This document shows positions 19,339 to 61,599 of a stretch of DNA of 64,000 bases, one piece after another. Below the pieces are notes generated by a model, which saw nothing but the letters and a program-made list of their open reading frames with translations, did no database searches and was not told where the DNA came from. Location: the NCBI RefSeq assembly GCF_009831575.1, contig NZ_WUUT01000004.1, positions 164,138 through 228,137 on the forward strand. The letters run 5' to 3'. This stretch comes from Halovenus carboxidivorans (lineage in GTDB: Archaea; Halobacteriota; Halobacteria; Halobacteriales; Haloarculaceae). How positions within the stretch are numbered: position 1 is the stretch's first letter; each line of letters opens with the position of its first letter. Made by a program: the position numbers and the translations under genes.

Positions 19339-19448
19339 TAGTTAAACGGTCGGCTCCACTTCCCACGGACGGGAACGCACGACCGCAAATCTGACTCGCC
19401 ATCCGCTTGGATGGCTCGGGATTGTGGGAGTGTCGGCCGGTATCGGCC
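19339..19448 (+). promoter_or_regulatory. Promoter and hairpin-containing leader candidate upstream of rps15
   Basis: A TATA-like ATAGTTAAA at 19339-19347 would start an RNA near 19372. That RNA would contain two perfect hairpins: GCCATCC/GGATGGC (19398-19404 with 19409-19415, loop GCTT) and GGCCG/CGGCC (19435-19439 with 19444-19448). Both lie 57-107 nt before the rps15 ATG. They could be a leader control element or the terminator of the preceding gene. A weaker TATA-like CTTACAG at 19472 would allow a leaderless rps15 message instead. Confidence 0.4.
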
Positions 19449-58114: not shown

Positions 58115-59470
58115 TCAGATCGCGTACTCCGATTCCCGGAACTGCACGTAGTTTCCGCTCTTGAATCGGCTTTTGGTCCGCTTGTAGCCGTACAGCAGTT
58201 TGAAGCCGGTCAGCCCGGCACGTAGCGTGCTCCGCCAGTTGTAGTTGCCGCGGTTGACCATCGTCTCGGCCGCGCCGAAGGCCCGGTCCCAGTCGCTCGG
58301 CTGGTACTCCCTGACGAGTTCGGCCATCGTCACGTTGCGGAGGAACTCGGAATCTAGCGCCGACTGCCACTCGCGGTTGTAGCCGGTGAGATCGCCCTCT
58401 CCGGCGAGTCGGCCCGCGATCTTTCCGGTCCGGACCGCAACGTGGTCGCCGCCCTCGTGAAATGCCGACGTGCCGCCCATCGCGCCGCCGACGACCGCGA
58501 TACCGGCCTTCGTCGGTGATTCGATCGGCCGGGTCGAAGAGATGGCGTACGTCTCCGTCCCGTTCCGTTTGCCGCGGTCCTCGACGAGCGGGAAATCGTC
58601 GATGTCGTATCCCGGGTACTCCCGCTCGATCAGCCGTTCGATGTACGTCCGACCCTGCGGGATACGCGTGTCCTCCTCACGAAGTAGCTCCCAGATCCGG
58701 GGGTCGAAGTCGTCGATATCCAGTCCGATGGGCATCGTCAGCCCGATCCGGGCGACGTTGCCGTCGTTCGGGAACACCCACGGATATGCGGTGTGTCCGG
58801 GCATCAGCCCCCACCAGAACTTCAGCCGCGAGGGTTCGTGGATCTCCTCGGGCACCTCGCGGTGCTCCTGATAGGCGATGTGGTTGACCTCCGTCGGATT
58901 GAGCACGGTCTCGATAGCACGGTCCGTGGTGAACTGGTCGAGCGTCTCCGTCGTGACCGTCCGCTGGGGACCGTCCGCGAGGATGAGATACTCGGCGGTG
59001 ATCTCCTCGCCGTTGGACAGCGTCAGGGTGTGCTCGTGGCCGCCGTTGACGGAACTCTCGACGCTCGTGACGCTGTCGCCAACCTGGTAGTTCGCGCCCG
59101 CGGACTCGGCCCGTTCGCGGAGCCAGTCGTCGAACTTCGCCCGGTGAAAGGCGAGGCCGAACTCCGGATACGAGGCCTCGATCCCGGTCTCGTCGATCCG
59201 GAAGGTCTCCGAGGGGCCGATGAAATCCGCCCCGTCCAGCGTCCGGAGAACAACGTCGTCGGGAATCTCGTCGGGTTCGAATCCCATCAGATCGATCCAG
59301 TAATCGAGCAGACCCGCCGCGTCGGTCGAGTCGGGGCCCGGCCCTGCTCGGTCCGCGCGTGGCACCCCTTTCTCGATAACGAGCGCGTTCGCACCCGCCG
59401 ACGCGGCCGCTTCCGCCGCAGATGTCCCGGCGGGTCCGCCACCAACAATTGCTACGTCGACACGCTCCAT
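58115..59470 (-). CDS. FAD-dependent oxidoreductase, geranylgeranyl reductase family
   Basis: A 451-residue flavoprotein. It opens with Val-Asp-Val-Ala-Ile-Val-Gly-Gly-Gly-Pro-Ala-Gly-Thr-Ser for FAD binding, has the Tyr-Pro-Trp-Val-Phe-Pro motif of the geranylgeranyl reductase group, and a Gly-Gly-Ala-Met-Gly-Gly segment for the second FAD contact. Such enzymes saturate the isoprenoid chains of archaeal lipids or menaquinone. This one is longer than typical digeranylgeranylglycerophospholipid reductase, so the exact substrate is open. It is transcribed divergently from the Tat-protein gene. Confidence 0.88.
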   Translation of the reverse strand: MERVDVAIVGGGPAGTSAAEAAASAGANALVIEKGVPRADRAGPGPDSTDAAGLLDYWIDLMGFEPDEIPDDVVLRTLDGADFIGPSETFRIDETGIEASYPEFGLAFHRAKFDDWLRERAESAGANYQVGDSVTSVESSVNGGHEHTLTLSNGEEITAEYLILADGPQRTVTTETLDQFTTDRAIETVLNPTEVNHIAYQEHREVPEEIHEPSRLKFWWGLMPGHTAYPWVFPNDGNVARIGLTMPIGLDIDDFDPRIWELLREEDTRIPQGRTYIERLIEREYPGYDIDDFPLVEDRGKRNGTETYAISSTRPIESPTKAGIAVVGGAMGGTSAFHEGGDHVAVRTGKIAGRLAGEGDLTGYNREWQSALDSEFLRNVTMAELVREYQPSDWDRAFGAAETMVNRGNYNWRSTLRAGLTGFKLLYGYKRTKSRFKSGNYVQFRESEYAI

Positions 59471-60195: not shown

Positions 60196-60591
60196 TCAGG
60201 AGGACTGATGGATCGATCGCTTCGCTGTGTCGAGGCGCGGTCGGGTCGTCACGTCCTCGATTGTGGATTCGAGCGTCGATTCGTCCACGGGCTTTCGTAG
60301 ATACTCGTCGAGCGGTGACTCCGAGAGACAGACATCTGCTGGCTCCGAGCTAATCATGACGATCGGGCAGTCGTAGCCCGCTGTCCGCATCTCCGCCGCA
60401 ACGTCGAGGCCGGAGGGACCGGGCATGTTTCGGTCCATGAGAACCAGGTCGACGCTGTGATCGATCCTGTCGAGCGCGACCGTCCCGTTCGGGGCTGTCT
60501 CCACTGCGTGGTCGTCCTCCAGCCAGAACGCGTAGAGATCCCGGCAGCCGTCAGTATCGTCCACGATCAACACGTCGAGTGACTCCATCAT
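60196..60591 (-). CDS. Stand-alone response regulator receiver domain
   Basis: A 131-residue protein with only a CheY-like receiver fold. The phosphorylatable Asp is in Leu-Met-Asp-Arg-Asn-Met-Pro, acidic pocket residues are Val-Asp-Asp at the start, the switch Ser is in Met-Ile-Ser-Ser-Glu, and the Lys is in Leu-Arg-Lys-Pro-Val. No output domain is attached, so it would act by protein contact with a kinase or effector encoded elsewhere. The ATG-ATG start at 60591 is used. A longer start at 60609 is possible. The downstream side faces the end of the Tat-protein gene. Confidence 0.9.
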   Translation of the reverse strand: MMESLDVLIVDDTDGCRDLYAFWLEDDHAVETAPNGTVALDRIDHSVDLVLMDRNMPGPSGLDVAAEMRTAGYDCPIVMISSEPADVCLSESPLDEYLRKPVDESTLESTIEDVTTRPRLDTAKRSIHQSS

Positions 60592-60609
60592 CCGTCGTAT
60601 CCCACACAT

Positions 60610-61224
60610 CGTGAAGATCCTTACTTAATTGTGCATACCGTCCAGAATCGTTTACACTGTTTACCGCGTTTTCTCGCGGCTTAAGAACCAACCAGTCCAC
60701 TACAGATACACTCAATGGTTGTAAGTGGCTTCAAATGGAAAAAATCGGTTCTCGACACCTGTTTTCGAGTAATCATTCGAAGGAAGAATTATCTATTAGC
60801 TGACCTGCGAGCGATCAGTGTCCTCGTTCGGCCGGAGTTCCCGCCCGTACGAAGGGTCTAAACGGCTGGGGGGTCACGTCACTGATGCGTGCCCCAGTCC
60901 CCGCGTGAGCAGACCCACTCGGGTGCGATGACGGCGCGGTGAACCCGGGCATGCGATATCCCGTCCCGTCTGGGACACGGTGGTGGCTGACGCCACCACG
61001 TGGTTGTCCGTCCGGACAACCCGCCCGGCACGAGGGTTAGCCGGCCGACCGAGGCACGACGCCGGGAATGACGCCGGTCGTTAGTGTTCCGGGCGACAGT
61101 TCACGACCAGCGACCGTGTTCGGAGATATTCGGGAGTAGACTCACGGGCGGTCCGGCTCTCCAACCGACTGTATGCCAGTAGTACACTCACCGACGAACA
61201 GTCCGAGCCGTTCTCTTTGCACCT
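60610..61224. other. 615-bp non-coding region: AT-rich upstream part, hairpin-rich core
   Basis: Positions 60610-60800 are AT-rich, with runs such as AATTATCTATTAGC at 60787-60800, and contain the promoter of the receiver gene in the reverse direction. Positions 60850-61085 are GC-rich and full of paired hairpin arms. Positions 61086-61224 are the leader of the cupin gene at 61225. No ORF with codon usage like the neighbours was found. An antisense open frame over 61081-61551 is a shadow of the cupin gene. Confidence 0.7.
60854..61080 (+). ncRNA. Candidate structured RNA, family unknown
   Basis: Seven hairpin elements follow one another within about 230 nt. The first is GGGTCT (60854-60859) with AGACCC (60911-60916), enclosing CTGGGG (60866-60871) with CCCCAG (60892-60897). 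Next come CTCGGGT (60918-60924) with ACCCGGG (60943-60949), GTCCC (60963-60967) with GGGAC (60972-60976), GTGGTGGC (60980-60987) with GCCACCAC (60992-60999), and GGTTGTCC (61002-61009) with GGACAACC (61014-61021). Last are CCGGC (61025-61029) with GCCGG (61040-61044) and CGACCG (61046-61051) with CGGTCG (61075-61080). One G-U pair (919/948) works only on the plus strand. An AT-rich box at 60787-60800 could be its TATA. A GATGA and TGA pair within the 60918-60949 stem resembles a kink-turn, so an H/ACA guide is one possibility. SRP and RNase P signatures were not found. Confidence 0.45.
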
Positions 61225-61599
61225 ATGCCTAAGACGACCATCGAAGCCGAACGGGCCTTCGACGACGAGCAGTTCGCGACCTCCGGCGTCTTCCAGAGCG
61301 ACCGGATGAAAGTCGTCTGTGGCTACTTCGAGCCAGGGCAGTTCATCCCCGTCCACGCGCCGGGCAGCGACGTGATGATCCACATCAAATCCGGTACGGG
61401 CGTCGTCCGTGAGGGGCCGACCGAACACGAGGTGTCGCCCGGCGATATCGTCGTCGTTCCCGCCGATACCGACCGCGGAATCAAAGCCGACGACGACACT
61501 CGCCTCGAAGCAGTACTCGTGACGGCACCGCCGCCGACCGACGAGGAACACGCGCCGGTCCGGGCAGGGCTGAGAAACGACGAGTTCGACCCGCAGTGA
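61225..61599 (+). CDS. Cupin-domain protein
   Basis: A 124-residue single cupin. The region Pro-Gly-Gln-Phe-Ile-Pro-Val-His-Ala-Pro and Gly-Asp-Ile-Val-Val-Val-Pro-Ala-Asp covers the two cupin motifs, but only one His is present at motif 1 instead of the usual His-x-His, so metal binding may be weakened. The rest matches small mannose-6-phosphate isomerase-like cupins. The substrate is unknown. It is the first gene after the structured non-coding region, and its start ATG is preceded by CACCT. Confidence 0.82.
   Translation: MPKTTIEAERAFDDEQFATSGVFQSDRMKVVCGYFEPGQFIPVHAPGSDVMIHIKSGTGVVREGPTEHEVSPGDIVVVPADTDRGIKADDDTRLEAVLVTAPPPTDEEHAPVRAGLRNDEFDPQ

Follow-up and report, generated by a model that had tools for sequence, protein, structure and literature searches.

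What is encoded in the 615-bp gap between two open reading frames of Halovenus carboxidivorans, within the 64,000-nucleotide stretch of DNA that we analysed (the window)? The first-pass annotation, whose size and bounds for the gap agree with ours, had read it as a hairpin-rich, stable non-coding RNA or riboregulator of no known family, and had proposed a search for covariation in relatives, an Rfam scan and a comparison of ACA boxes and guide pockets with rRNA as checks. The gap almost certainly encodes a two-unit archaeal box H/ACA guide RNA of ~215–220 nt on the plus strand, whose guide hairpins, HP1 and HP2, flank a spacer of further hairpins (Table 1). Among the latter are two perfect 8-bp hairpins, which lie exactly where the first-pass annotation had placed them.

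Two conserved hairpins with box H/ACA architecture

On each strand, the region folds more favourably than dinucleotide-shuffled versions of itself (z = −2.56 on the plus strand and −3.02 on the minus strand), although these scores are modest and are by themselves no proof of an RNA. The single-sequence minimum-energy fold of the whole region lacks the HP2 guide fold and mixes the spacer with HP2, and we rejected it as a misleading structure model. Of 60 relatives searched at the DNA level, 47 have the element, which appears as a pair of conserved blocks, HP1 and HP2, around a variable middle. In alignments of HP1 from 29 genomes and HP2 from 30, the proposed search for covariation in related haloarchaea was successful: compensatory changes on both sides of the pair occur at 8 pairs in each guide hairpin. 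Shuffles reached the 8-pair score in 3 of 500 cases for HP1 and in 0 of 500 for HP2, and none of the slid controls reached it for either hairpin. The G·A columns of the kink-turns and both adenines of the ANA boxes are invariant across these 29 HP1 and 30 HP2 sequences. RNAalifold applied to the HP2 alignment returned a competing register inside the pocket, which we set aside because the lower stem is off by one base in several alignment rows.

Archaeal H/ACA guides comprise a lower stem, an internal loop and an upper stem with a kink-turn, followed by an ANA box, and 14–16 nt separate the pair closing the pocket from that box (PMC4652768, PMC7991803). HP1 and HP2 both have a lower stem, pocket and upper stem, with compensatory changes, and each upper stem holds a kink-turn with tandem G·A pairs, a 3-nt bulge and a C-stem. 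An ANA box lies directly 3′ of each lower stem, at 14 nt from the closing pair in HP1 (60900–60941) and at 16 or 14 nt in HP2 (closing pair 61040–61079 or 61039–61081, respectively). A one-base asymmetry remains in the HP1 upper stem, which we counted against the assignment. The GATGA/TGA pair singled out by the first-pass annotation is the HP1 kink-turn, and its side remark that an H/ACA-type guide was possible proved to be the correct reading, as all the hallmarks occur twice in tandem.

Table 1. Features of the guide RNA locus (positions in the window).
Feature	Position	Strand	Detail or basis
Intergenic gap	60610–61224		615 bp; flanked by ORFs 60196–60609 (minus) and 61225–61599 (plus)
BRE-like element	60850–60855	+	CGAAGG; C/G/A/A enrichment by position, −34 to −29 from RNA start, 136 homologues
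TATA-like box	60857–60862	+	TCTAAA; 22–27 nt 5′ of the probable start; A/T at −23 in 99% and at −24 in 93% of 136 homologues
Probable transcription start	60884–60885	+	22–25 nt 3′ of TATA box; purine-rich column
Guide hairpin HP1	60886–60955	+	covariation, invariant kink-turn columns, model match 93 bits
HP1 lower stem	60886–60894/60947–60955	+	9 pairs
HP1 pocket strands	60895–60899 and 60942–60946	+	
HP1 kink-turn	G60907·A60931, A60908·G60930	+	bulge 60927–60929; C-stem 60909–60910/60925–60926
HP1 ANA box	60956–60958	+	AUA; alignment; ACA in the majority of relatives
Spacer of hairpins	60959–61021	+	63 nt; includes 5-bp hairpin at 60963–60976; final hairpin abuts HP2
Perfect 8-bp spacer hairpin	60980–60999		GTGGTGGC-tgac-GCCACCAC
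Perfect 8-bp spacer hairpin	61002–61021		GGTTGTCC-gtcc-GGACAACC
Guide hairpin HP2	61022–61095	+	covariation, invariant columns, model match 99.8 bits
HP2 lower stem	61022–61028/61089–61095	+	
HP2 pocket strands	61029–61039 and 61080–61088	+	
HP2 kink-turn	G61047·A61071, A61048·G61070	+	bulge 61067–61069
HP2 ACA box	61096–61098	+	alignment

Strand, promoter and distribution

The plus strand favoured by the first-pass annotation is supported by an excess of G-U over A-C cells in the HP1 pairs (58 versus 6), and the conserved promoter is on the same strand. Three features recur in the DNA upstream of the 136 homologues: a GAAA resembling a BRE, a TATA core made up solely of A/T at 23 nt upstream of the first hairpin column and, near −7, a site rich in A/T. 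The conserved BRE and TATA positions suggest that transcription probably starts at about 60884. The first-pass annotation had also drawn a nested two-stem element at 60854–60916. The complementarity exists in the present sequence, but the 5′ arms of the element fall within the conserved promoter, and at an ungapped offset the outer stem is fully kept in only 4 and the inner stem in 1 of the 136 homologues; we therefore rejected it as an RNA element.

Our HP2 covariance model matches 145 of the 146 genomes of the order, with a single match in each except G241, and a further 15 genomes elsewhere in the phylum. At each of the 147 loci measured (136 distinct), HP1 is found on the 5′ side of HP2. 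Models built from the present alignments detect the guide RNA in nearly every haloarchaeon. Two relatives, G241 (C120:2823–2901; 34.5 bits) and L090 (1287–1371; 21.6 bits), each carry a further, weak HP2-like match downstream of the guide RNA, which may represent an additional H/ACA unit or a degenerate copy.

Predicted targets in 23S rRNA and mode of action

With the organism's own 23S rRNA (L031; 519 U) as target, the HP1 pocket pairs 5 + 3 around U2618, in GGGUUUAGAC. For the HP2 pocket, the pairing is 4 + 8 around U1953 and, in a shifted register, 4 + 6 around U1955, both in GGUAACUAUGACCCUC. Each of the three has at least 3 bp on either side of the target U. The comparison with rRNA proposed in the first-pass annotation yields ANA boxes at 14–16 nt and pockets that pair with 23S rRNA. 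Where the register is set by the distance to the ANA box, each target U (U2618, U1953 or U1955) comes first in a ranking of the 519 U. An open-register search of 16S and 23S rRNA was not significant, as shuffled rRNA scored at least as high as HP2 in 53 and as high as HP1 in 5 of 100 trials; we discarded this search as target evidence and retained only the fixed-register rank. The target assignment consequently leans on the register rules, on the conservation of the pocket strands (AACCC in 119 and GUUAGUG in 135 of the 136 homologues) and on published positions. In Haloarcula numbering, haloarchaeal HP1 was predicted to guide 23S pseudouridine 2621, and HP2 to guide 1956 and 1958 in alternative structures; all three positions are reported as pseudouridine in Haloarcula (PMC2584109). 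Judged by sequence, U2618, U1953 and U1955 are the likely equivalents of these three residues, and the guide RNA would explain how haloarchaea make the three reported pseudouridines of 23S rRNA, which lie in helix 69 and at the peptidyl transferase centre.

The structure was established by covariation, and the boxes, their spacing, the promoter, the distribution and the genes for Cbf5, Nop10, Gar1 and L7Ae/eL8, all four of which are present, were likewise observed here. Transcription, protein binding, modification and the role of the linker we infer as follows. Each unit would presumably be bound by Cbf5, Nop10, Gar1 and L7Ae, with L7Ae gripping the kink-turn and Cbf5 holding the lower stem and ANA box. 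The internal-loop strands would pair with rRNA on either side of the target U, which Cbf5 would convert to pseudouridine. HP1 is thereby predicted to guide U2618 (E. coli 2586, as read from sequence context), and HP2 would guide U1953 and U1955 (E. coli 1915 and 1917, helix 69, read likewise) in alternative registers. The hairpins between the units would form a haloarchaea-specific linker, which most likely separates the two particles or insulates their folding.

A variable hairpin array between the guide units

We surveyed the spacers of 136 distinct elements, counting perfect hairpins of at least 6 bp. Spacers span 0–190 nt and contain 0–7 such hairpins, with 3902 paired bases in all; shuffles gave 1157 on average and at most 1406. 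The final hairpin ends exactly where the HP2 lower stem starts in 89 of the 114 hairpin-bearing elements. It lies within 1 nt of HP2 in 93 elements; these abutting hairpins have 79 distinct sequences, which indicates that structure is kept while sequence changes. Long arrays (for example, L085, L079, L040, L112 and L164) alternate two hairpin types, GGnG...CnCC and GRCGGY...RCCGYC, the second often flanked by TC on both sides (TC/TC mismatches). Loops are mostly of 3–5 nt, and UNNC loops are frequent. The array is absent from a few haloarchaea and, outside the order, where HP1 adjoins HP2 (L067 and L069).

Our tentative reading, held at somewhat less than even confidence, is that selection maintains the spacer as a haloarchaea-specific domain, in which perfect hairpins form an array inserted between the two guide units of an ancient H/ACA RNA, the final hairpin abutting HP2. 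It may act as a structural linker between two sRNPs, and its function could be, for example, to space the sRNPs on the ribosome precursor, to stabilize the RNA at high salt or to bind protein. Instead, the hairpins might constitute a DNA repeat, mobile or palindromic, or might signal the processing of the RNA into two single-unit guides; either would be compatible with the H/ACA identity and would fit the copy number of 0–7 and the recurrence of unit sequences within arrays. We consider this explanation unlikely, as the spacer sequence was not found elsewhere in its own genome, nor were those of four genomes with long arrays, and for these five genomes we rejected a dispersed repeat. The spacer stems, moreover, contain 13 G-U against 4 A-C mismatches, an excess that mildly favours RNA-level constraint on the plus strand. 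The variable linker, with its 0 to 7 hairpins, offers a compact natural series in which to study how two guide particles are accommodated on a single RNA.

Genomic neighbourhood

The first-pass annotation had suggested a riboregulator ahead of the cupin gene, and the cupin ORF, which is on the same strand, does begin ~125 bp past the 3′ end of the RNA. That the RNA acts in cis on this gene, as a leader or riboregulator, is nevertheless very improbable: a cupin gene is near the RNA in 1 of 136 homologues, the present copy, so the linkage is not conserved, whereas the guide RNA has its own promoter and is itself conserved across the order. The commoner neighbour is a geranylgeranyl-reductase-type gene, found at 67 of the 136 loci, mostly upstream and co-directional; these neighbour counts are lower bounds because many loci have only 1.5 kb of flank. 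In the window, a gene of this type lies ~1.4 kb upstream of the guide RNA (58115–59470, minus strand). Its orientation, opposite here and usually co-directional, suggests a local rearrangement.

Comparison with known RNAs

The proposed Rfam scan (Rfam 15) gave no match in or around the RNA element, and none in the gap at the gathering score or up to E = 5. Although this result might point to SRP RNA, RNase P RNA or a new class outside H/ACA, we regard such alternatives as having next to no chance, because the H/ACA hallmarks are all present twice in tandem and the existing Rfam covariance models for SRP and RNase P RNA do not match the gap (gathering score or E ≤ 5), which bears out the first-pass annotation in setting both aside. 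Since no Rfam 15 family matches the guide RNA, Rfam-based annotation will miss it. The sole Rfam match in the window is an S15-Halobacteria ribosomal protein leader at 19368–19433 (71.5 bits).

The first-pass annotation was right that the plus strand encodes a stable non-coding RNA but wrong that no known family accounts for it. In 2008, Grosjean et al. predicted two H/ACA hairpins, HP1 and HP2, for Haloferax volcanii and 'other halobacteria' (PMC2584109), and the present RNA is that haloarchaeal HP1/HP2 RNA, matched by description and structure rather than by published sequence. It shares with the published RNA the order of HP1 then HP2, conservation among haloarchaea, the long spacer and three 23S targets (PMC2584109), and Haloferax prahovense (L130) has a homologue. 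Our RNA differs in species and sequence, and its spacer is here resolved as a variable hairpin array. The family is already known and the guide RNA itself is ordinary; the array is its less-described part. The published RNA was later named sR-h45.

The spacer has been described merely as a 'long spacer' (PMC2584109), though other papers may say more. HP1 and HP2 are stated to be homologues of stems II and III of the Pyrococcus H/ACA RNA Pf7 (Pab40), which are adjacent in Thermococcales; Pf7 lacks a spacer but carries a third hairpin, whereas the haloarchaeal RNA lacks stem I and has the spacer (PMC2584109). In the non-haloarchaeal homologues L067 and L069, HP1 directly adjoins HP2, as in Pf7.
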